The notes under the pieces are model-generated. The model ran no database searches and was not told the DNA's origin. It was given only the letters and a program-made list of their open reading frames with translations. Source: Bacteroidota bacterium (lineage in GTDB: Bacteria > Bacteroidota > Bacteroidia > Bacteroidales > WCHB1-69). From it: DNA of 34,636 nucleotides. The position numbers and the translations under genes were made by a program. The stretch is from positions 1 to 34,636 of the forward strand of contig JAKPTX010000089.1 of assembly GCA_029570835.1 (NCBI GenBank). The letters run 5' to 3'. Positions 2,254 to 33,641 of this stretch are shown piece after piece (within the stretch, counting starts at the first letter, position 1; every line of letters starts with the position of its first letter).

Positions 2254-3777
2254 ATGAATAGAATAGGACGTTTTGTTGTAATCATGGCATCAATAAGTGC
2301 TTTGATTTTTTTAGCTTTAACCGGTTATGCTCAAAAGCTTAAACCCGCTGATGTTCCTGAAAACATCAAACAAACCTTATGGGAAGAGCGGGGAGAAGTC
2401 AAAGTCAGACAATGGATATTTGACAATGATATGTATGTCGCCACCTTTAAATTTGACGGTTCCACTGTTCAATGCTACATCAACAGTGATGGCGAATTTG
2501 TCAGAGCTTCCACCATTATACCTAAAAATACACTTCCTACCTCCATCATGGAATACATCAAGAATAATTATCCTGAATTTGCGATTCCGGTTTCTGAAAT
2601 CAGAGAGGAACCCAATACTCCTATGTATTACCATGTTGAAGTTAAACCGGAAGTGCTCGGAGCAAAACATTCTGTTCTGACGTTTGACCTTCACGGAACT
2701 TTGATGAGTCGCGTTGATCCCGAAGGATTTACCACTCCTGAACTCACTCCACAACAGTTGGTTCAGAAAAAAGCGGATGAAAAACTTGCTGAATCTAATC
2801 GTAGTAAATCGGGAAACAAACAAAGACCTCAACCTCAGAAAAAGGAACCTGCTGCTAAAGAGCCTAAACAACAAGCTCAGCCTAAAAAACAGGCTGAACC
2901 CAAACAACAGCCTCAACCTAAAAAGCAGGCTCCTAAAAAAGAAGAAGCAGAATCTTCTCAATTTGCAGATATCCCTGCTGCCGTACAAAAATCACTGACA
3001 AAAAAAGTGATCAGACCGGAAAAATTACAATGGAATAAAGAGGGGGATTTTTATGTTGCCGAATGTGTTGTGTCTAAACAGAAAAACCAACTTTTCTTTA
3101 CACCTGAAGGAAATTGGGATAAAACCTTAGTCTATATTCCAAAAGAAGGTGTTACCGGACCGATGTTGAAACACCTCAACACCTACTTTAAAGGTTTTAA
3201 GTTCACACAGGGAATCAGAGAGCAAAGAGCTGATAAACAAGACAAAGTGTTGGTTGAATTTATTGAAAAAGACAACTCTAAGTCTCAAATTTCCACCACT
3301 GTTGTATTTGACAAGCTGGGTAGAGTAATCAAAACGTATTATCCATCAGGAGATCATCCATCAGATCCGCTGACAAAATTAGAACCTGATTATTTGTATA
3401 AACTCCCTGAAGATATTCCAACTACCGCGATAGAAGCGTTTCAGGCAAAATACCCCAAAGTTACAGGCGTTGAATGGAGCGAAGATGATGAGGGTTACTT
3501 TTTGGCGTCCTATTACGGTATGAGAGGAAAAGAGGTGGTAGTAATGGAAGGAGATGGTACTTTCATTGAGATTAGAACAGCGGCTAACATGCAGAATATC
3601 AACGGAAATATTAAAGGATATATCAAGAAAAATCATAAAGGCTATACTATCACTGAATATTATACTGTCAGAGGATTGATAGAAAAGAAGAACTCTTTTT
3701 ATGTTGTGATTCAAGACAAAAAAACGAACATTACCATTCCTTTGTCGTTTACAACTGCCGGACAGATTATGCAATAA
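2254..3777 (+). CDS. Secreted protein with three PepSY-like repeats and a Lys/Gln/Pro linker
   Basis: A signal peptide (residues 1-26, ending LTGYAQ) marks this 507-residue protein for export. Three stretches share one pattern: an opening like VPENIKQTL / IPAAVQKSL / IPTTAIEAF, a tryptophan-containing strand (RQWIFDND, LQWNKEGD, VEWSEDDE), then a strand naming aspartate or glycine (INSDGEF, FTPEGNW, MEGDGTF). They begin near residues 33, 239 and 388. This resembles the PepSY-like/BLIP-like fold common in Bacteroidetes periplasmic proteins. Residues about 178-235 are a low-complexity linker rich in K, Q and P. Exact function is unknown. prmA follows 21 bases later, so they may be cotranscribed. 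Confidence 0.75.
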   Translation: MNRIGRFVVIMASISALIFLALTGYAQKLKPADVPENIKQTLWEERGEVKVRQWIFDNDMYVATFKFDGSTVQCYINSDGEFVRASTIIPKNTLPTSIMEYIKNNYPEFAIPVSEIREEPNTPMYYHVEVKPEVLGAKHSVLTFDLHGTLMSRVDPEGFTTPELTPQQLVQKKADEKLAESNRSKSGNKQRPQPQKKEPAAKEPKQQAQPKKQAEPKQQPQPKKQAPKKEEAESSQFADIPAAVQKSLTKKVIRPEKLQWNKEGDFYVAECVVSKQKNQLFFTPEGNWDKTLVYIPKEGVTGPMLKHLNTYFKGFKFTQGIREQRADKQDKVLVEFIEKDNSKSQISTTVVFDKLGRVIKTYYPSGDHPSDPLTKLEPDYLYKLPEDIPTTAIEAFQAKYPKVTGVEWSEDDEGYFLASYYGMRGKEVVVMEGDGTFIEIRTAANMQNINGNIKGYIKKNHKGYTITEYYTVRGLIEKKNSFYVVIQDKKTNITIPLSFTTAGQIMQ

Positions 3778-3798
3778 TATTTGGCTTTTAAACTACAG

Positions 3799-4650
3799 AT
3801 GAACTATATTGAAATTAAAGTTGAATTAAGTGAGGCGGAGCCCTGGAAAGAGATTTTTATTACATTTTTATCTGAACTGGGATGCGATAGCTTCGCTGAC
3901 GGAGAAACAGATGAGGAGTTTTTAGCTTATATTCCCAAAGATCTTTTTAATAAAGAATTATTAAAAGAGACTTTATCCGAACACGATTTTGATGTTCAGG
4001 TGAAGTATCAATGGAGCGAAATTCCAACTCAGAATTGGAATCAGATCTGGGAATCCAATTACAGTCCGGTGCTGATTGCCGATCGTTGTTTCATTCGGGC
4101 ACCCTTTCATGATCCCATGGAAGGTGTTGAGTATGAGATTGTTATTGAACCCAAAATGTCGTTTGGGACGGCACATCACGAAACCACCTCACTCATGGTA
4201 CAACATATCCTGAAAGAGGAACTCGCCGGCAAAAGTGTACTCGATATGGGTGCCGGAACCGGGATTTTAGCCATATTGGCTTACCTTAAAGGAGCCAGAC
4301 CAGTCACTGCAATTGATAATGATGAGTGGGCTTATCTGAACAATATTGAAAATAATGAACGGAATCATACCGAAGAGATTACCGTGAAATGGGGTGATGC
4401 TCAAACTATTGAGGGTGACTCTTACGAAGTGATCTTCGCCAATATCAATCGCAATATTTTATTGAATGACCTACCCCAATATGTTGCGACATTACAGCCG
4501 GGAGGATCGATTTTTTTAAGCGGATTCTATGTAGGTGAGGATTTGGCAAAGATTCAGGAAAAATGTAATCAGCTGGGTCTCAGGTATGTATCTCATTTGG
4601 AATTGAATCAATGGTGCGCTGCACATTTTATTAACGATAAAAAAGAGTAA
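3799..4650 (+). CDS. prmA: Ribosomal protein L11 methyltransferase
   Basis: PrmA trimethylates ribosomal protein L11 using S-adenosylmethionine. The protein has an N-terminal substrate domain, the loop PKMSFGTAHHETTSLM, and the SAM-binding motif VLDMGAGTGILAILAYLKGA from about residue 146, followed by an acidic residue pair in AIDNDEW and the catalytic-region FANINRNILL. I chose the ATG at 3799 (MNYIEIKVEL). A frame extension to a TTG at 3781 exists, but it adds six residues unlike the family. The next gene starts two bases after its stop, so the two are very likely cotranscribed. Confidence 0.93.
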   Translation: MNYIEIKVELSEAEPWKEIFITFLSELGCDSFADGETDEEFLAYIPKDLFNKELLKETLSEHDFDVQVKYQWSEIPTQNWNQIWESNYSPVLIADRCFIRAPFHDPMEGVEYEIVIEPKMSFGTAHHETTSLMVQHILKEELAGKSVLDMGAGTGILAILAYLKGARPVTAIDNDEWAYLNNIENNERNHTEEITVKWGDAQTIEGDSYEVIFANINRNILLNDLPQYVATLQPGGSIFLSGFYVGEDLAKIQEKCNQLGLRYVSHLELNQWCAAHFINDKKE

Positions 4651-4651
4651 A

Positions 4652-5602
4652 ATGAAAAAGATTTTAGGAATTGGAAATGCCTTAGTGGATATTTTAATTG
4701 AAATAGAAAACGATCAGATACTTGAACAGTTTGGACTACAAAAGGGCGGAATGGAGATGATCGACATTGAAAAGAAAAGAGAGATTGATCAGGCGATCCA
4801 GCATCTTCCTAAAAAAATTGCATCCGGTGGTTCCACTTCCAATACCATTTACGGATTAGCCAGATTAGGCGCTCTTGCGGGTTATATCGGAAAAATTGCC
4901 AAAGATGAGATGGGAGATTTTTTCAGACAGGATATGATTAATGCCAAAATCGATGTACATACGCTCTATTCCGATATTGACACCGGTATTGCCACCACAT
5001 TCATTTCTTCCAATGGAGAAAGAACTTTTGCCACCTACTTGGGAGCCGCATCCACTTTGTCGCCCGAAGAGATCGATATTAACATTTTGAAACAGTACGA
5101 TATCATTCATGTTGAAGGATACCTTATCTTCAACCGCGAATTGGTTTTGGATATCTGCAAAAAAGCCAAACAGTGCGGAAGATTGATTTCCATGGATATG
5201 GCGAGCTACAATTTAGTAGAATCGATGCATGACCTGGTTCAGGATTTGGTTGAAAACTACGTGGATATCATTTTTGCCAATGAGGATGAAGCCAGAGCTT
5301 ACACCGGAAAAGAGGAGTTGGAAGCACTTGAAATCCTCTCCCAACATTGTGATGTTGCAGTGGTTAAGTTAGGTGCCCGCGGTTCTATCGCCAAGGTAAA
5401 CGGCGTTGTAACGCATATCGATCCCGTTCCCGGAGAGTGTATCGACACTACCGGAGCCGGAGATATTTACGCTGCCGGATTCCTTTATGGATTAATGAAC
5501 GATTATGACGTGAAGAAAAGTGGTGCGTTGGCATCTCGTTTAGGCACGGCATGTATCCAAAAAATAGGCGCCAGACTGGAAGATCACCACTTTCAATTAT
5601 AG
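4652..5602 (+). CDS. PfkB-family kinase, adenosine kinase-like
   Basis: The protein (316 residues) is a ribokinase/PfkB fold sugar or nucleoside kinase. It opens with KKILGIGNALVDILIEI, has the PfkB N-terminal glycine-rich region IASGGSTSNTIYGLARLG with a GKIAKDEMG segment, and the C-terminal signature DTTGAGDIYAAGFLYG at 265-280 with catalytic Asp271. Members of this subgroup in Bacteroidetes are commonly annotated adenosine kinase; that fits the overall sequence but substrate identity is not proven. Its start lies one base past the prmA stop, and it converges with cinA with only three bases between the two stop codons and no visible terminator. Confidence 0.88.
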   Translation: MKKILGIGNALVDILIEIENDQILEQFGLQKGGMEMIDIEKKREIDQAIQHLPKKIASGGSTSNTIYGLARLGALAGYIGKIAKDEMGDFFRQDMINAKIDVHTLYSDIDTGIATTFISSNGERTFATYLGAASTLSPEEIDINILKQYDIIHVEGYLIFNRELVLDICKKAKQCGRLISMDMASYNLVESMHDLVQDLVENYVDIIFANEDEARAYTGKEELEALEILSQHCDVAVVKLGARGSIAKVNGVVTHIDPVPGECIDTTGAGDIYAAGFLYGLMNDYDVKKSGALASRLGTACIQKIGARLEDHHFQL

Positions 5603-23565: not shown

Positions 23566-25494
23566 ATGAAAAAATTATTATCTTTTTTAGTTGTAATGTT
23601 TTTAGTTTCAGCAACACTTTTTGCTCAAACTAAAACGAGTCGAATGAACACATCATTTGTTGCCAAGGCTAAACAAACAGCCCTTACAGGTAACGAAATG
23701 ACTCCTGAAAATGTAGTTCCTGAAGTTATTCGTGCATTTAGTACTACCAATATTGGATCTACATATTATGATGCGGTTACTAATGCCACATCAAGAAATA
23801 CAATTACCAACTGGAATGATGGTACTGTAGCTGCAGTGTGGACAACTGGACAAGTTTCTTCACAAAGAGGGACAGGTTATAATTACTATAATGGTAACTC
23901 ATGGTTTCCGGCTCCTCCTGCTACTGAAAGAATAGAATCTGTACGTACAGGATGGGGAGTAATTGCACCGGTTGGGAATGGTGAGATTGTTGTATCTCAT
24001 AATGGAAATAATGGATTAACAATTTGTAAGAGAGCAACAAAAGGAACCGGAGATTGGACTGAATCTACGCTTATTGGTCCTCCACATGATGGAGATAATT
24101 CATCCAACACTGTATTATTGTGGCCGACTATTGCTACAGAGGGAAATACAGTTCATCTATTTGCATGTACAGATAATGTTGAAGATGTTCTTTATCAAGG
24201 ACTTCAAACACCACTACTTTATTTCAAATCAACAGATGGAGGAAGTACTTGGTCTGCACCACAGTTGATTGGCGCGATGACAGGATTAAATGAAAGTATG
24301 GCAGACAATTATATGGCGGTTGCTAAAGGTGGAAAAGTTGCTCTTTTGGTAATCGAAAGATTCTCAGAAACCTACTATATTGAATCTTCTGATGGTGGAA
24401 CAACATGGACCAAACATACTGTTTATCCTTTCGTGGGTGGAAATAATTTTGACTTTGATACCCAATATTTCCCTATGACTGCTGTTACAGATGGAACCGG
24501 ATCGATTGCTATTGGAGATGATGGTACTGTTCACGTTGCTTTTGGAACTTATATGGCTGCTAGAACAGAAGAAAATGAGCCCGGCTACTATACTTATTGG
24601 GCAGGGTATGATAACTTATTCTACTGGAATTCAACCATGACTCCACTTGTTGCATTTGATACAACAACTGCAGAAACTTATAGCGGTAGATTGGGACGTC
24701 CTAATTTGGATGGAGATGATACCATTTGGTTTATGAGTGGATATAGCTTTTCAGACTACAGAAACAATGGACCAATTACTTTTCCTAGCTTGGTAGCTGA
24801 GGGAGGTAAAGTTTATATGGTATATGCTGCAGCAATGGAGGCTCCTTATCTTTGTGGAGCAACTTCCGAGTACTATTATGGAATTTTTGCAACAGTGTCT
24901 AATGATAATGGTGCAACCTGGGATGACCAAAATAGAGTTAGTTGGTTGTCATACCATCCTGAAATGTATTTTGTGGACTGGGTAAGCAGCGAATTGTATG
25001 GGGAGTTGTTTGTAACAATGGAAGGTGAGTGTTTCTGGCCCAAAATGGCTCCTAACTCGACTGATGGTAAATTGAGTATTATGTGGTACTTTGACTATTT
25101 ACCAGGTAATGTTGCCGGATTTGGATCAGCGACAAACTATGTTTATGCAATGAATATCGATAAAGAAGATATTGGAGTTATCAAAAAAACAACTGAAGTT
25201 TATCAAGGACTTTGGAATGAAGAGGGTATCAAGGAGAACACACTTTCAGAAATGAAACTATTCCCTAATCCAACATCTAATACTGTAACTATTAATTTAT
25301 TCTCTAAAGATCAAGGAGCTGCAACATTAACTATTACTAATTTAATGGGACAAGTTGTTTATAATGAAATTGTTTCATTAGGGTATGGAACTAATCAATT
25401 GATGGTTAACTGTTCTGATTTTATTTCAGGATTCTATTTAGTTAACATTTCTACTCAGAAAGGATCTACTACACAAAAATTGATTGTTCAGTAA
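23566..25494 (+). CDS. Secreted sialidase-like (BNR repeat) protein with T9SS type A sorting domain
   Basis: A 642-residue exported protein with signal peptide ending ATLFAQ at 21. At least three Asp-box (BNR) motifs are visible: STDGGSTWS near 222, SSDGGTTWT near 274, and SNDNGATWD near 445, the repeat of beta-propeller sialidases and related exo-glycosidases. Sialidase catalytic residues cannot be placed confidently, so glycan-binding or a non-enzymatic propeller is possible. The end, LFPNPTSNTVTINLFS to GFYLVNISTQKG and TQKLIVQ, is a T9SS type A C-terminal signal, so it should be at the cell surface or secreted. It has its own promoter and a strong terminator. Confidence 0.88.
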   Translation: MKKLLSFLVVMFLVSATLFAQTKTSRMNTSFVAKAKQTALTGNEMTPENVVPEVIRAFSTTNIGSTYYDAVTNATSRNTITNWNDGTVAAVWTTGQVSSQRGTGYNYYNGNSWFPAPPATERIESVRTGWGVIAPVGNGEIVVSHNGNNGLTICKRATKGTGDWTESTLIGPPHDGDNSSNTVLLWPTIATEGNTVHLFACTDNVEDVLYQGLQTPLLYFKSTDGGSTWSAPQLIGAMTGLNESMADNYMAVAKGGKVALLVIERFSETYYIESSDGGTTWTKHTVYPFVGGNNFDFDTQYFPMTAVTDGTGSIAIGDDGTVHVAFGTYMAARTEENEPGYYTYWAGYDNLFYWNSTMTPLVAFDTTTAETYSGRLGRPNLDGDDTIWFMSGYSFSDYRNNGPITFPSLVAEGGKVYMVYAAAMEAPYLCGATSEYYYGIFATVSNDNGATWDDQNRVSWLSYHPEMYFVDWVSSELYGELFVTMEGECFWPKMAPNSTDGKLSIMWYFDYLPGNVAGFGSATNYVYAMNIDKEDIGVIKKTTEVYQGLWNEEGIKENTLSEMKLFPNPTSNTVTINLFSKDQGAATLTITNLMGQVVYNEIVSLGYGTNQLMVNCSDFISGFYLVNISTQKGSTTQKLIVQ

Positions 25495-25669: not shown

Positions 25670-26923
25670 ATGAAAAAAATTTACTCATTATTAGTGATGG
25701 TTATGATTGTGAGTGTTGGTTATGCTCAAATCTCAACCCAAACAATTAAGAAAGAGAATCTTAATTTACAAAAACAAGAAGTTAATTATCGTCCTGACAG
25801 ATCAGGAGCCGGTTCTTGGTGGTTTTCCTACTGTGAAGATTTAATGTATTACATGGGAACAGAATTGGATTATGGATACGTGAATTTCTTACAAGATTCA
25901 GTAGGTACAATTCAATATTCTGATGGTGATGGACGTCCACAGTTCTTTAGCTTTGCTCAGGTTTTTAACTTTGAAGAGCAAATTTGGCATGATCTTTATT
26001 TTGGTTTATGCGATGAGGATGGAACACCAATTCCCGTACCTTATATTGGAGGAACCAATACTTATTCTATCGACTCAATGAGCTGTATTTATGCTTATTT
26101 GTGGGGAGAAAATGTTCCTACTACTACTGTTGATACATTGGTAATGACTATTATAGCTGATGATAACCTTGAATATATGACTCTTAATGCAGGTGGTACT
26201 CCGGCATTTATACAAGCCGAAATTGATTATGATTTTAGTAATTCATCCATTGCTCAAGCAACACATCCAAAATTTTATACCGTTAAAGTTCCTTTAACAA
26301 TTGATGATACTACGGGAGGCTATTTTGTATACAAAAATTTGCCGGTAGTAGGATTTAATAACCTAAATACTAAAACTGTTGCGGTTGCGTACTCTTTTAT
26401 CTCAGGTAAAGCTAATAGAGTTATCACTGACGTAATAGGAACAGATATTAACAGATTTGTCGCATATTACAATGAAGATCCAAGAGATGATTATAGTACT
26501 TTTGGTTCAACTGCTTTAATGACAGAAGAGAGCAACTCTATGTGTGCAATGGATTGGACTTATACTTCTTCAACTTTCTTAGGTCAGTATGTTAGTAACT
26601 CTATTTGGATTGGAAAATTAAAACGTCCAGGAATTTCAGTTCTTGCATCTTGTGATGACTGCGAATGGGTAGGTGTGGAAGAAATTGATCAAAAAAACAT
26701 CTCAGTTTATCCAAATCCGGCAACAAATAACTTTACAGTGAATTTACCCACTGCCAGCACTGCAAATGTAGAATTATTCAATATTGTTGGACAAAAAGTT
26801 TACAATGATGTTGTAAATGAACTTACTGTTCATGTTAATGTTTCTGAACTTAAACCCGGAATTTATATGTTAAAAGTAACTCAAGATAATAAAACTTATA
26901 CCACAAAAGTAGTTGTTAAATAA
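25670..26923 (+). CDS. Secreted protein of unknown function with T9SS type A sorting domain
   Basis: A 417-residue exported protein (signal peptide ending VGYAQ at 20). The middle has no domain I recognise; it is rich in aromatic and Asp residues (SWWFSYCEDLMYYMGTELDYG) and has short cysteine motifs near CDDCEW at about 324. From about residue 335, ISVYPNPATNNFTVNLP, then VELFNIVGQKVYNDV, VSELKPGIYMLKVTQD and TTKVVVK is a complete T9SS type A sorting domain. It probably sits on the cell surface. Its neighbour upstream carries the same type of signal, but the proteins are not similar in the rest of their length. Confidence 0.85.
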   Translation: MKKIYSLLVMVMIVSVGYAQISTQTIKKENLNLQKQEVNYRPDRSGAGSWWFSYCEDLMYYMGTELDYGYVNFLQDSVGTIQYSDGDGRPQFFSFAQVFNFEEQIWHDLYFGLCDEDGTPIPVPYIGGTNTYSIDSMSCIYAYLWGENVPTTTVDTLVMTIIADDNLEYMTLNAGGTPAFIQAEIDYDFSNSSIAQATHPKFYTVKVPLTIDDTTGGYFVYKNLPVVGFNNLNTKTVAVAYSFISGKANRVITDVIGTDINRFVAYYNEDPRDDYSTFGSTALMTEESNSMCAMDWTYTSSTFLGQYVSNSIWIGKLKRPGISVLASCDDCEWVGVEEIDQKNISVYPNPATNNFTVNLPTASTANVELFNIVGQKVYNDVVNELTVHVNVSELKPGIYMLKVTQDNKTYTTKVVVK

Positions 26924-28001: not shown

Positions 28002-28021
28002 CTTTTCTAAAAATATTGAGT

Positions 28022-29467
28022 ATGGAGATAATAAAAACGATAGTAACAGACCTATTTAAAGAGACTCATTTAGAAATTACAAAATTACCTCAGTCCGGAT
28101 CACCTCGAATTTATTACAGAATATCTTTTCGTGATCATCAGCCTGTTATCGGTGTTTATAATAGTGATGTTAAAGAAAATGAAGCTTTTTTTGGTTTTAC
28201 GGAGTCATTTAGAAACAAAAAAATTGCGGTTCCGGAAATTTATTTCATTACACCAAATAGACAATATTATATTATAGAAGATCTTGGGGATATAACCCTT
28301 TTTGAATTTTTAAAGCAAGATCGAGGTCAGGAAGGCTTAGGTGAAGCAACGATCGAATGGTATAAAAGGGTACTTGAGGAGCTTCCAAAAATTCAGTTGT
28401 TAAATGAGAAAGATATCGATTTTTCCCTCTGTTATCCCAGAGCTGCGTTTGATCGACAATCGATGAATTGGGATTTGAACTATTTTAAGTACTATTATTT
28501 GAAATTAGTTCATGCTCATTTTGATGAACAAGAATTGGAGGATGATTTTAATAGATTGATTCAATTTTTATTGGAAGCAGATGCACAATATTTTATGTTT
28601 AGGGATTTTCAATCCAGAAATATAATGTTGCATCAAGGTAAACCTTACTTTATTGATTATCAAGGAGGAAGAAGAGGTCCATTGCAATATGATTTAGCAT
28701 CTCTTTTATATGACGGAAAAGCTGATATTCCGGAAAAGATTCGGGAGGAATTGTATCATTTTTATATCGATCAATTGGCACGCTATATAGAAGTGGATAA
28801 AACGAAATTTGAGACCTATTACATTGGTTTTGTATTGATTCGTATTATGCAAGCTCTTGGAGCGTATGGCTACAGGGGATATTATGAGAAAAAGAGTCAT
28901 TTCTTGCAAAGTATTCCTTATGCATTACAAAATATTCGTTATATTTTGAGGAATAAAACTCTTCCTATTTCAATCCCAACACTTTGGAATCTGCTTGATT
29001 TTATTTCTAAAGAGGGGAATCTTTCATCACCATTGGAACAATCTAAGCATTTAACAATTACGATTCAAAGTTTTTCATTTAAAGTGGGGATACCTACTTC
29101 TGAAAGTTCCCATGGTGGTGGTTTTGTGTTTGATTGTAGATTTTTACCCAATCCGGGTAGAATACCGGAATATAAAGAGTATAATGGGACAGATCTTGCT
29201 ATTCAACAATATTTTTCACAATATGAAGTAGTTGAACAATTTAAGAGAAGTGTCGAAGAGATTATTATAATGGCAGTTGATAATTATTTAGAACGGGAAT
29301 TTCAACAATTAATGATCAATTTTGGATGCACTGGAGGACAACATAGATCGATTTATTTTGCGGAATGGTTGGCAAAAAAACTTCAGGAAAGATATCCTCA
29401 AGTGCAAATAAACTTAAACCATATTCAGTTTCCGGAATTATCAAAGAGGTTTGTTCCAAATCAATAA
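28022..29467 (+). CDS. APH-family kinase domain fused to a RapZ C-terminal domain
   Basis: The 481-residue protein joins two modules. Residues about 1-330 are an aminoglycoside phosphotransferase/choline-kinase-like fold: VIGVYNSDVKENEAFFGF for the nucleotide-side lysine area region, FRDFQSRNIML near 194-204 as the catalytic loop (Asp and Asn kept), and FIDYQGGRRGPLQYDLASLL as the metal-binding Asp segment. Residues about 340-480 match the C-terminal domain of RapZ/YvcJ: FDCRFLPNPGRI and FGCTGGQHRSIYFAEWLA. In RapZ that domain senses glucosamine-6-phosphate; the kinase resembles AmgK-type amino-sugar kinases. The RapZ N-terminal P-loop domain is absent. A TTG start two codons earlier is less likely than this ATG. 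Confidence 0.88.
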   Translation: MEIIKTIVTDLFKETHLEITKLPQSGSPRIYYRISFRDHQPVIGVYNSDVKENEAFFGFTESFRNKKIAVPEIYFITPNRQYYIIEDLGDITLFEFLKQDRGQEGLGEATIEWYKRVLEELPKIQLLNEKDIDFSLCYPRAAFDRQSMNWDLNYFKYYYLKLVHAHFDEQELEDDFNRLIQFLLEADAQYFMFRDFQSRNIMLHQGKPYFIDYQGGRRGPLQYDLASLLYDGKADIPEKIREELYHFYIDQLARYIEVDKTKFETYYIGFVLIRIMQALGAYGYRGYYEKKSHFLQSIPYALQNIRYILRNKTLPISIPTLWNLLDFISKEGNLSSPLEQSKHLTITIQSFSFKVGIPTSESSHGGGFVFDCRFLPNPGRIPEYKEYNGTDLAIQQYFSQYEVVEQFKRSVEEIIIMAVDNYLEREFQQLMINFGCTGGQHRSIYFAEWLAKKLQERYPQVQINLNHIQFPELSKRFVPNQ

Positions 29468-29530: not shown

Positions 29531-30511
29531 ATGAAAAGGAGAGGTATATTATTTCTTCAGTACACCCTAATAGCACTAATTTTTATTTTGGGGTTAGCCT
29601 CTTGTAATTTTTCCGGGAAACGTTCACAAGATACTGTTGAAGAAGAAGAACTTTTAATAGAATATCCGATAGCCGCTATTTCTGATTTTATTGAGACTTC
29701 CCCGACAGACACGAATGAGCTTTACCCTGTAAGTGAGGAGTTTTTAAAACAGTTTTTACTTTTTGCATCACAATATGAGGGGCAAAAATTAACGGTTAAA
29801 ACTCATTTTCCTTTGGAGTGGGGTGTTTTAGTAATAGAGCGATTACCTGAAGGGAGGGAGTTATATCTTTTACAATCCAAAAATCGGGAATGGAAATATA
29901 TTGTCATTACTTCCGGAATGGGAACCCAAAGAATTTTAGATTTGATTCCTGTTGCTGTTAATATTGCTGTTCAAAATCAGGATATTTTAGAAACAGAAAT
30001 TTGGACTACAACACGAAATGAGATGGGAGAGTTTTCTGTGGAAAAAACTTATACTTGGGTAAGATCTGTTGCAGAGGAATCTTTAGCAGAGTACAGGAAT
30101 AATCCCGAATCATTTAATAAAACGACCAAAGTAATAGATGTGTACGCAATTAATAAAATGTGTCGCTTTGATTTTCTCTTATCTGATTTAATTCCGGAGT
30201 ATAGTGCAGTCATTTTTTATTATCAAGATGGGAAAAAACCTGAAGATTGGGATGAAATTGTACCGATTCTTCAAAGTTATTGTGAAGATTATGAGATCAT
30301 TTTTGATGAAATACATCAGGATTTTGATAAAGTGGTTATTAGAGATTATAAATTAAATAATATTACAACGGTGGATCTAACCCCCTTTATTTCTGACGCT
30401 ATGGCAGGATTGGTTTTATTAAAAAAGGATGAAGAACCCAAAGTTGTTTTGTTTGGAAGTTTAGAAAGAATGCGGATAGAAATTAAAAGGTATTTTAAAA
30501 TAATTTCTTGA
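29531..30511 (+). CDS. Lipoprotein of unknown function
   Basis: A 326-residue exported protein with a lipobox: hydrophobic 6-22 then GLASC with lipidation Cys25. The mature part is mixed alpha/beta and rich in acidic residues, with no motif I recognise. It follows the kinase-RapZ fusion by 63 bases but has its own promoter. The glutamine-synthetase-like gene begins 49 bases downstream and shows no clear box of its own, so it may be cotranscribed. Confidence 0.75.
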   Translation: MKRRGILFLQYTLIALIFILGLASCNFSGKRSQDTVEEEELLIEYPIAAISDFIETSPTDTNELYPVSEEFLKQFLLFASQYEGQKLTVKTHFPLEWGVLVIERLPEGRELYLLQSKNREWKYIVITSGMGTQRILDLIPVAVNIAVQNQDILETEIWTTTRNEMGEFSVEKTYTWVRSVAEESLAEYRNNPESFNKTTKVIDVYAINKMCRFDFLLSDLIPEYSAVIFYYQDGKKPEDWDEIVPILQSYCEDYEIIFDEIHQDFDKVVIRDYKLNNITTVDLTPFISDAMAGLVLLKKDEEPKVVLFGSLERMRIEIKRYFKIIS

Positions 30512-30560: not shown

Positions 30561-32045
30561 ATGAACATTAATCCTATTTCGAAATTTTTAAAAAAGAATC
30601 CAAAAGAGTTTTCCAAAACAGATATAGTTCGTTATATCGAAGAAAAAGAGGTGAAAATGGTTCAACTTCTTTTTGTTGGGGAAGATGGTTGTTTGAGAAA
30701 AGTCAATATTAATGTTCATAGTAAGAGTTTTGTTGATCAGCTATTGACTTGGGGGGAAATGATAGATGGATCTTCAGTTTTTCCATCCTCAAGTAGAACT
30801 AAGTCCACTTCTATTATTTTATTTCCCAGATTGAGCTCTTCCTTTGTTAATCCCTTTGAACCTGTCCATACGCTTAATTTTCTCTGTTCTGTACACACTT
30901 ATAGCGGAAAAAATTTAGAATCTTCATCTGAGTATATTTTAAAAAAAGCAGATGATGCTTTTCAAATGGTAACCGGCATGGAGGTCAGGTTCAAAAGTGA
31001 GGTTGAGTTTTATCTATATAGTGAAGATGATCCCAATTTTTCAAATCAGTTGCAAAATAGAGAGTATTCAATATCCCCCTACTCTATATATGATCGTTTC
31101 ACTTATGAGTGGATGAATAAAGCGGCACAATGTGGCGTTTTAATACAAAAAGGTTATGTTAAGGGAAATTATCTTAAAAAGAATGATTATCTGTACGAAC
31201 AGCACGTTGTGGAGTTGTCTTCTCTATCTCCTATGATGGCTGCAGATCAATTAACAATTTTAAAATGGGTATTAAAAAATTGTGCTTTTCAGCATAATTT
31301 AAAACTAACTTTTGCGCCTGTTGTGGATATTAATGGTAAGGGGAATGATTTAATAATCCATTCTCAAATAGTTAAGAATGGGAAGAATCAAATGTTTACG
31401 GATTTAAAACTGAACTCAATAGGTAGGACTGCCATTGCCGGTTATCTGTTTTGTACTCCTGCTTTAACCGCATTTGGAAATAGTAATGCTTTATCTTACC
31501 TGAAAGTTAACCGTTCTCTCAATAAATATCATTACCTATTTTGGGGTGATGAGCGCCGTACTGCTCCGATTTCCATTCCTCAAAGATGTACTCAATTCGA
31601 AGAACTTTATAATGATTTAAGTTCAAGTGAGAAACCTGTACCTAAAAAGAAATATCATACTCCTTTTATTACGCACAAAACTTCAGATTTTTCTTCAGAG
31701 ATCTACTTATTGTTAGCTTCACACTTGATCTCCATGAGACATGGTTTTGAGATGGAAGAAGCACTTAAATTTGCGGAATCTCATTATATTGATGTAGATA
31801 TTGATCTTCCTGAGTATAAAGGGAAGTTTGAACATTTAGTCCCACTACCTTCCTCTTGTTTTGAGTCTGCAGATGAATTGTCAAAACAGAGAACAATTTT
31901 TGAAAAGCATGCTATTTTCCCAACGGATATGATTGATAATGTTATCAGAAAGTTGAAGAAAATTGAACAATCTGATTGGGAAAAAATGATTCAAAAGGAT
32001 CATGATTTATGTGTTGAGTTGATTGATAAAAATATGGACTGTTAA
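30561..32045 (+). CDS. Glutamine synthetase-like protein, probable pseudoenzyme
   Basis: The 494-residue protein keeps the scaffold of Bacteroidetes glutamine synthetase: VKMVQLLFVGEDGCLRKVN, GEMIDGSSVFPS, SEVEFYLYSEDD (Glu147, Glu149 kept), YEQHVVEL, MAADQLTILKWVLKN, PALTAFGNSNALSYLK, FWGDERRT, HGFEMEEALKFAE, SCFESADELSKQRTIFEKH. Yet several usual catalytic positions differ: the metal-site Glu of the QNE motif is V (QHV near 214), the GSGxHxH motif is GKGNDLIIHS (about 259), the RxP arginine is S (ISIP), and the E-x-R of the following block is THK. Two Glu at 147/149 remain. It is unlikely to make glutamine as ordinary GS does; it may bind a ligand or partner. Confidence 0.82.
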   Translation: MNINPISKFLKKNPKEFSKTDIVRYIEEKEVKMVQLLFVGEDGCLRKVNINVHSKSFVDQLLTWGEMIDGSSVFPSSSRTKSTSIILFPRLSSSFVNPFEPVHTLNFLCSVHTYSGKNLESSSEYILKKADDAFQMVTGMEVRFKSEVEFYLYSEDDPNFSNQLQNREYSISPYSIYDRFTYEWMNKAAQCGVLIQKGYVKGNYLKKNDYLYEQHVVELSSLSPMMAADQLTILKWVLKNCAFQHNLKLTFAPVVDINGKGNDLIIHSQIVKNGKNQMFTDLKLNSIGRTAIAGYLFCTPALTAFGNSNALSYLKVNRSLNKYHYLFWGDERRTAPISIPQRCTQFEELYNDLSSSEKPVPKKKYHTPFITHKTSDFSSEIYLLLASHLISMRHGFEMEEALKFAESHYIDVDIDLPEYKGKFEHLVPLPSSCFESADELSKQRTIFEKHAIFPTDMIDNVIRKLKKIEQSDWEKMIQKDHDLCVELIDKNMDC

Positions 32046-32056
32046 ATAAAAAATCG

Positions 32057-32128
32057 GGCTCTGTAGTTCAATGGATAGAACAAAAGTTTCCTAAACTTTA
32101 GATTCGGGTTCGATTCCCGGCGGAGCTA
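32057..32128 (+). tRNA. tRNA-Arg (anticodon CCT)
   Basis: A 72-base tRNA: acceptor GGCTCTG/CGGAGCT (G1-U72), D arm GTTC/GAAC, anticodon stem AAAGT/ACTTT with loop TTCCTAA giving anticodon CCT (reads AGG), and T arm TCGGG-TTCGATT-CCCGG. Discriminator A is followed by CA. It begins 11 bases after the preceding stop codon without its own visible promoter, so it may be processed from that mRNA. Confidence 0.95.
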
Positions 32129-32194
32129 CATTTTTTAGTTAAAACATTCCTCTTTTTCTGATAAAATTTTCTTTTTTGATACCTCGAATTGTTG

Positions 32195-32228: not shown

Positions 32229-33641
32229 ATGAAAAAAAGACCTAATATTGATTACCCATTTAGTATTGACAGAGAAAAACTGTACTCTATGATTGAGGGG
32301 GAGGCACCTACTCATCAAGAGTTAGAACGGATTTTACAGAAAGCCAAAGATCTCAAAGGATTGACTCTGGAAGATGTAGCAGCTCTTTTGAGAGTGGAAG
32401 ACCATGATCAGATTTACGAAATCATGGAAGTTGCAAAATATGTGAAAGAGGAAATTTATGGCAAAAGGTTGGTTCTTTTTGCACCTCTCTATACGGGAAA
32501 TGTTTGTGTTAACAATTGTACATATTGTGCTTTTCGTCGTGCAAATAAAAATTTAACGAGAAAAATACTCAATATGAGAGAGATTGAAGAAGAGACACGT
32601 ATTTTATTAAAAGATGGACATAAAAGATTATTGTTAATTTGTGGTGAATCACCTAAAAATAATATTGAATATGTATGTGAAGCAATACGTACTGTATATG
32701 CTGTGAGAGAAGGAAACAATAATGTGAGAAGAATCAATGTTGAGTTGGCTCCAATGGATGTTGAAGATTTTGAAAAATTACATAAGGAGAATATCGGCAC
32801 CTATGTTTGCTTCCAGGAAACTTATGATCAAGAGCTATATAAGGAATATCATCCTGCAGATACTCCCAAAAGTGACTATATGTACCGTTTAAATGTAATG
32901 CATAGAGCCATGCAGGGAGGTATTTTGGACGTTGGATTGGGAGTTTTATTTGGTTTGGCAGATTATCGCTTTGAAATTTTGGCTTTAATGGAACACGCCA
33001 ATCATTTGGAAAAAATGTTTAATTGTGGTCCTCATACCATAAGTTTCCCTAGAATTGAGCCGGCTGAAGGGGCCCCACTTCCCGAACATATTCCACATAA
33101 AGTAAATGATGATGATTTTAAAAAAATTATTGCCATTATTAGAATAGCATTACCCTATACAGGTATTATATTGAGTACAAGAGAATCTGATGAGTTGAGA
33201 ACGGAGCTCTTTAATTATGGGATTAGTCAGATATCTGCGGGTTCCAGGACTAATCCGGGAGCATATAGTCATATCGCTAATAAGAATACTACCGGTAGTC
33301 AGTTTGCATTGGGAGATCATCGTTCATTGGAAGAAGTGATTTCAGGAATGATAGATAGCGGTTATATTCCCTCATTCTGTACTGGTTGCTATCGACATGG
33401 TAGAGTGGGAGCCGATTTTATGGATCTTGCAAAACCCGGATTAATTAAGCAGTATTGTTTACCTAATGCACTTTTCTCTTTCAAAGAATACTTATATGAT
33501 TTTGCAGGCGAGGAAACCAGGAATAAGGGATTGGCGCTAATCCAAAAGATGGTTGCAGATTTACCACAAAACAAAAGAACTGAAACAGTTAAATCAGAAC
33601 TGCAAGAGATAGAAAAAGGAAAAAGAGATTGCTATTTTTAG
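32229..33641 (+). CDS. hydG: [FeFe]-hydrogenase H-cluster radical SAM maturase HydG
   Basis: HydG cleaves tyrosine with a radical SAM reaction and supplies the CO and cyanide ligands of the hydrogenase active site. The radical SAM CX3CX2C motif is Cys93, Cys97, Cys100 (CVNNCTYCAF). The HydG-specific C-terminal iron-sulfur motif is present as FCTGCYRHGRVG with Cys384 and Cys387, which separates it from the related tyrosine lyase ThiH. Length 470 is typical. It implies that hydE, hydF and an [FeFe] hydrogenase exist elsewhere and that the cell handles H2 in anaerobic metabolism. Its stop overlaps the convergent transglycosylase stop. Confidence 0.95.
   Translation: MKKRPNIDYPFSIDREKLYSMIEGEAPTHQELERILQKAKDLKGLTLEDVAALLRVEDHDQIYEIMEVAKYVKEEIYGKRLVLFAPLYTGNVCVNNCTYCAFRRANKNLTRKILNMREIEEETRILLKDGHKRLLLICGESPKNNIEYVCEAIRTVYAVREGNNNVRRINVELAPMDVEDFEKLHKENIGTYVCFQETYDQELYKEYHPADTPKSDYMYRLNVMHRAMQGGILDVGLGVLFGLADYRFEILALMEHANHLEKMFNCGPHTISFPRIEPAEGAPLPEHIPHKVNDDDFKKIIAIIRIALPYTGIILSTRESDELRTELFNYGISQISAGSRTNPGAYSHIANKNTTGSQFALGDHRSLEEVISGMIDSGYIPSFCTGCYRHGRVGADFMDLAKPGLIKQYCLPNALFSFKEYLYDFAGEETRNKGLALIQKMVADLPQNKRTETVKSELQEIEKGKRDCYF

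Follow-up and report, generated by a model that had tools for sequence, protein, structure and literature searches.

Gene and Genomic Context

The window, by which we mean the whole analyzed stretch of 34,636 nucleotides, is contig C40 of a genome from the order Bacteroidales (G000; 2.92 Mb in 277 contigs, 95% complete, with 4.75% contamination). It carries a gene of the glutamine synthetase (GS) superfamily that starts with ATG, has no internal stop and encodes 494 aa, together with the further features listed in Table 1. Both GS domains score above the Pfam cut-offs, if weakly: Gln-synt_C (PF00120) with 84.9 bits (E = 7.5e-24; cut-off 24) and Gln-synt_N (PF03951) with 37.8 bits (cut-off 33.4). 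On the NCBIfam model of type I GlnA (TIGR00653), applied to the window protein only, the score is 109.5 bits where the cut-off stands at 429.15. It is therefore a homolog of type I GS (GSI) that lies far under the equivalog level and does not score as a functional type I enzyme. It is also distinct from type III GS (GSIII), with 494 aa versus about 730 and no match to GSIII_N (PF12437) in G000. AlphaFold2, run on two sequences (the window protein and L033), gave a mean pLDDT of 32.9, which is too low for a usable model.

The gene recurs with the same replacements in a sister species, G001 (UBA5429; 98% complete and, like G000, a fragmented assembly), whose protein is 89% identical to that of the window, and gene order is collinear between the two over about 40 kb. 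An artifact, be it misassembly, a frameshift or a contaminating contig, might be suspected from the 277 contigs and the estimated contamination of G000, but it is scarcely credible when a separate assembly holds the same gene in a collinear setting.

In G002, which belongs to the same genus, a canonical GS occupies the slot of the divergent gene. The order shared with this locus is a RapZ-domain fusion, the 326-aa gene, GS, HydG and a transglycosylase; HydG is also the downstream neighbor in G001. Loci of g2, g11, g13 and g16 likewise gave a match to the 326-aa gene beside GS, and two g4 loci show it as a terminal piece that is cut off; it was not found in other GS loci with room for it, for example in g7, g8, g14, g17 and two further g4 loci. 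Its position beside GS, together with the synteny of G002, marks the locus as orthologous. Because the GS of G002 in this same slot is canonical, the loss of the active site took place at the native locus, with no duplication and along a single very fast branch.

None of the neighboring genes scanned by profile hints at nitrogen regulation. Two adjacent proteins have Por secretion tails, and the one at 25670..26920 is, of the 31 genes compared between G000 and G001, one of the most rapidly evolving (dN/dS 0.19-0.24).

Table 1. Features of the window, with residues of the GS-like protein given in window numbering and the E. coli GlnA position in parentheses.
Feature	Position	Strand	Basis
Two adjacent proteins with Por secretion tails	23566..25491; 25670..26920		
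Fusion of AmgK-like phosphotransferase domain and RapZ C-terminal domain	28016..29467		
326-aa gene, no Pfam match; adjoins canonical GS in several family genera	29531..30511	+	
Putative pseudo-glutamine-synthetase gene, GSI-like, 494 aa, eight catalytic positions replaced	30561..32045	+	ORF, profile scores, alignment
Kept E147 (Glu129) and E149 (Glu131); SEVEF	30999..31007	+	alignment
Y199 (H210) to K201 (E212); canonical GHSEV is GYVKG	31155..31163	+	alignment
V216 (Glu220); EQNEIEF is EQHVVEL	31206..31208	+	alignment
I265 (His269), with H271 kept; GSGLHIH is GNDLIIH	31353..31355	+	alignment
K315 (R321) to N321 (E327), substrate Arg and flap Glu replaced; RLVPHQEAP is KVNRSLNKY	31503..31523	+	alignment
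R333 (R339) kept; S338 (R344)	31557..31574	+	alignment
T371 (E357) and K373 (R359); VEFR is ITHK	31671..31679	+	alignment
tRNA-Arg (anticodon CCT), between the GS-like gene and hydG	32057..32129		
hydG-like radical SAM gene	32229..33641	+	

Loss of Catalytic Residues

Residue states come from a 98-row MAFFT alignment numbered by E. coli K-12 GlnA (an earlier version held 40 rows). Fourteen positions were scored, D50, E129, E131, E212, E220, G265, H269, H271, R321, E327, R339, R344, E357 and R359, and their catalytic roles follow general GS biochemistry and, in part, an earlier reading of the letters. While all 82 other family GSs are canonical at every one of the 14 positions, eight are replaced in the window protein: E212K (window residue 201), E220V (216), H269I (265), R321K (315), E327N (321), R344S (338), E357T (371) and R359K (373). 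The six that are kept are D50, E129 (147), E131 (149), G265, H271 (267) and R339 (333). Specifically, the alignment shows the loss of four of the six metal ligands (E129, E131, E212, E220, H269 and E357), of the flap Glu (E327) and of three of the substrate Arg, with only R339 remaining out of R321, R339, R344 and R359. Neither the metal-binding set, with two of six kept, nor the substrate and flap set, with one of five, is that of a functional GSI. Twelve rows represent other families in the order; the nine complete ones are canonical at these positions, and the other three are fragmentary, with gaps or misaligned ends.

Glu129 and Glu131 are, we assume, one ligand of each metal site. With one Glu per metal site, no flap Glu and a single substrate Arg left of the original four, GS chemistry is very unlikely. 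The protein might still make glutamine, weakly and with altered metal and substrate binding, given that E129, E131, D50, H271 and R339 are kept and that the cell needs glutamine for GlnRS. Nevertheless, the eight catalytic positions are all replaced together, which makes residual synthesis highly improbable.

The earlier, sequence-only reading described the gene as full-length, unframeshifted and built on a GS scaffold, and the open frame of 494 aa and the two Pfam domains confirm this. Its alignment by eye also stands up, as a profile of 17 relatives compared with solved GS chains places the motifs on the corresponding GS motifs. Of its residue calls, Y at position 212 was wrong, since Y199 aligns to H210 and position 212 is K; all its other calls agree with the alignment, and E327N was missing from its list. 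The count of conserved residues in homologs, which that reading had proposed as a check, gave canonical states at the 14 positions in 82 of 82.

The changes extend well beyond these positions. Family-invariant columns, defined as those conserved in at least 98% of 91 rows, number 142; the window protein keeps 70 and replaces 72, and at 65 of the latter G000 and G001 have one and the same new residue. In residues 301-350, 12 of 32 invariant columns are kept, and in residues 401-450 nine of nine are kept versus 61 of 133 elsewhere (Fisher p = 0.0013, for a segment chosen after seeing the data). Part of the scaffold is retained, and the pocket region is remodeled along with much else. Catalytic columns were not significantly preferred among the losses, with six of 18 kept versus 64 of 124 other invariant columns (Fisher p = 0.21). 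Since they were lost no more than others, the whole protein has been remodeled, which leaves room for a new activity.

Such an activity, with the GS barrel rebuilt for another reaction, new residues in place and perhaps neither of the two metals, is the main rival of a ligand- or partner-binding role, which ranks as most likely. The 72 replaced invariant columns, 65 of them with a common new residue, speak for it, as does the fast stem followed by tight constraint, a course expected for any new function. However, four of six metal ligands are replaced, and to our knowledge GS-fold ligases for other substrates keep these ligands. On balance a neofunctionalized enzyme is unlikely, even though GS relatives with other substrates have been described, such as GlnA3 of Streptomyces (PMC6988585).

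Distribution in the Family

A survey of 104 genomes of the family gave a PF00120 match in 85 and none in 19. One GS was read per matching genome (in G080 a further match, a piece of 65 positions where a contig ends, was left out), and these comprise 82 canonical GSs, two of the window type (G000 and G001) and one that is partly lesioned (G007). The PF00120 scores are 83-85 bits for the G000 and G001 pair, 147 for G007 and 174.6-201.4 for the remaining GSs, including the canonical proteins of G002 (197 bits) and G014 (196 bits). After G001, the best matches of the window protein also lie within the family (G014, 422 bits; G002, 416 bits). No further member of the clade was found among the 104 family genomes or among 393 sampled genomes of the order, where the next best match scored 409 bits versus 1025; a scan of genome contigs returned only the record of G001, and viral contigs held no relatives. 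In the catalytic area, 12 of 12 replaced codons encode the same residue in G000 and G001, which on its own says little at 89% overall identity.

Restricted to good-quality family genomes, GS was undetected in eight of 53. The genomes in which it was undetected include three of g5 and two of g9 with 91-97% completeness and at most 5% contamination. This distribution suggests that members of the family have repeatedly lost the ability to make glutamine.

The GS of G007, from genus g6 (L036; contig C80 of G007, 718-2202), is placed on a long branch. It has P at position 264, G265E, R321K, a four-residue gap after 321 and E327S. Like the window protein, it is the only PF00120 match of its genome and has lesions of the glutamate site and flap; unlike it, it keeps all six metal ligands and is known from a single genome. 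It possibly represents a second loss of GS activity, and the event was probably independent.

Selection and Evolutionary Rates

Between G000 and G001, the dN/dS of the GS-like gene is 0.076 (NG86) or 0.070 (YN00), at a dS of 0.71-0.77. The NG86 value is the 15th highest among 31 syntenic genes, which range from 0.015 to 0.254; these genes come from 40 syntenic rows, nine of which were dropped because the frame was antisense, cut, overlapping or unrelated or, in two cases, because the row was short or lay at an edge. When the gene was simulated under neutrality, six of 500 runs were free of stops at 0.05 substitutions per site, and none of 500 at 0.1, 0.2, 0.355 (about half of the pairwise dS) or 0.71. 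Catalytic loss is thus combined with purifying selection, as in a conserved pseudoenzyme, and this in two species only.

These values bear on whether the gene is a pseudogene early in decay, drifting with its frame still open because GS is dispensable. The absence of a detected GS from 19 of 104 family genomes and the partial active-site loss of G007 would both fit such decay. Nonetheless it is very unlikely, because dN/dS is 0.07-0.08 at a dS above 0.7, the frame is intact in both species and simulated neutral frames do not stay open at these distances. The sequence-only reading had called the gene selected and catalytically degenerate on the strength of its open frame; the conclusion holds, but it is the second species with the same replacements and the low dN/dS that decide the matter. 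That reading had also named, as a case against itself, canonical homologs with this copy alone degraded. The 82 other GSs are indeed canonical, but the degraded state is common to G000 and G001 and is constrained.

The history before the split of the two species was very different in rate. G000 and G002 are 40.5% identical in GS versus 83.7% in GlnRS, while the corresponding values are 80.2 and 80.8% for the two canonical genomes G002 and G014, and 88.7 and 94.2% for G000 and G001. The GS stem of the pair measures 4.23 changes per column in a 51-row tree and 1.39 in a 7-row tree, its exact length being model-dependent, and in the GlnRS tree the stem is 0.135 versus the 1.39 of the 7-row GS tree. 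The GlnRS and 7-row GS trees were used for rates and kinship only, and the position of the pair beside G007 in the 51-row tree was flagged as long branches meeting and was not used. G000 and G001 group with G002 in the GlnRS tree with a support of 66; the G012 row of this tree, 20-24% identical to G000, G001, G002 and G007 and seemingly a wrong frame, was ignored. Rapid change that later gives way to constraint is typical of a shift in function.

Glutamine Supply and Candidate Partners

No second PF00120 match was found in G000 or G001, although the same search was positive in 14 of 14 control genomes and does pick up GSIII-sized frames of 730-750 aa in other families. A second canonical glnA, which had been proposed as a gene to look for, was accordingly not found in G000, and G001 has one PF00120 match only. 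With no other GS detected in either genome, the suggestion of a GS partner fails. Known pseudoenzymes are often paired with active paralogs, and a role as subunit or regulator of a coexisting canonical GS would follow that habit, but without such an enzyme among the matches, and with no GSIII_N in G000, this role is extremely improbable.

GlnRS scored above the cut-off in 11 of 12 genomes tested, G000 and G001 among them, and these cells therefore require free glutamine. Since GlnRS is kept in G000 and G001, we infer that glutamine must be taken from outside, by import of glutamine or of peptides.

A GatCAB bypass was considered and rejected, as G000 and G001 gave no GatB match and none of the 12 genomes gave one above the cut-off. 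Partial GatB matches below the cut-off (82-96 bits, in frames of 651-703 aa) occur in G006, G022, G010, G032, G014 and G060, and such frames are present in some genomes with GS and in some without. For GOGAT, PF01645 gave matches of 20-29 bits in nine of the 12 genomes, seven of them above the Pfam cut-off of 20.4 (G000, 21.8; G001, 22.0). These matches span only about 90-110 of 369 positions and lie in frames of 495-514 aa, which is shorter than any known GOGAT large subunit; by size, the frames could be IMP dehydrogenase. A GS-GOGAT route was rejected in turn, as a true GOGAT was not seen in the 12 genomes, a result that the short PF01645 frames keep from being clean.

P-II was present in G000 only among the 12 family genomes tested, being absent from G001 and ten others. 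L126 (contig C89 of G000, 3667-5182) carries the P-II frame next to a frame that was judged Amt-like by eye, and its 5.2-kb contig is possibly bin contamination. For this reason P-II was set aside as a partner of the pseudo-GS.

Comparison with Known GS-Like Proteins

The canonical GSIs of the family (G002 and G014) resemble the window protein in length (about 500 aa), in their two Pfam domains, in the invariant columns of residues 401-450 and, for G002, in locus. Identity to them is 35-41%, and they differ from it at eight of 14 catalytic positions and in the much higher PF00120 scores given above.

The nearest known precedent for a pseudo-GSI is lengsin, which is described as a dodecameric class I GS homolog of the vertebrate lens without catalytic activity (PMC2667176; PMC2605723) and is said to conserve functionally important GSI regions (PMC2667176). 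By these descriptions, lengsin and, as predicted, the window protein would both be GSI homologs kept for another job. In contrast to the vertebrate protein with its conserved GSI regions, however, the window protein belongs to a bacterial host, has lost its catalytic residues and has replaced the only GS.

GlnA3 of Streptomyces is described as a GS-like protein without GS activity that serves polyamine utilization beside true GSs in the cell (PMC6988585). It is similar to the window protein in lacking GS activity, as predicted for the latter, but it coexists with true GSs, whereas the genome of the window shows no other GS. GlnA3 is taken here to be a working ligase whose catalytic residues are intact. 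The feedback-inhibited GS of Gram-positive bacteria binds GlnR and so has a regulatory role via a partner (PMC9249791). It shows that GS can regulate through a partner, but it is an active enzyme, unlike what is predicted for the window protein. No bacterial pseudo-GS was found in literature on inactive or GS-like proteins or on Bacteroidales glutamine auxotrophy, with subscription journals mostly outside its scope.

A Possible Function for the Scaffold

The locus is orthologous, its stem is very fast, strong purifying selection follows, and no other GS is detected in G000 or G001. From these observations and the residue replacements, it is very probable that the product is a selected pseudo-GS without GS activity, and a conserved pseudoenzyme, its role left open, is the probable reading as a whole. 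A ligand- or partner-binding regulator is proposed tentatively. The fuller proposal, that the sole GS, with no duplication and no move from its locus, turned into a scaffold that is selected but non-catalytic and that senses glutamate or glutamine or binds a partner, is doubtful in that specific form. A nitrogen sensor is possible.

In the proposed course of events, a class I GS would have turned into a pseudoenzyme where it stood, with no duplication, in the ancestry of two species that belong to one Bacteroidales genus. By GS chemistry, each of the two metal sites would be left with one Glu of three ligands, and the binding of glutamate and phosphate would be broken. The lysines at positions 212, 321 and 359 could neutralize the leftover Glu129 and Glu131 in a metal-free pocket. 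The protein may then have been retained because the GS scaffold has a use apart from catalysis; it would most likely act as an oligomer to which a small ligand or a partner protein binds.

If the scaffold reading is true, the parent GS served a non-catalytic purpose that could be separated from glutamine synthesis and that outlasted the need for it. GS is among the most conserved enzymes, and pseudoenzymes usually derive from spare copies. Here, the only detected copy appears to have given up its chemistry at its original locus, after which it came under strong selection, with a canonical ortholog in the same genus. Together with the genomes of the same family in which no GS is detected, this offers a natural experiment that asks if GS does anything besides catalysis that is worth keeping. 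Moreover, the label "glutamine synthetase" is, by itself, no proof that a bacterium makes glutamine.
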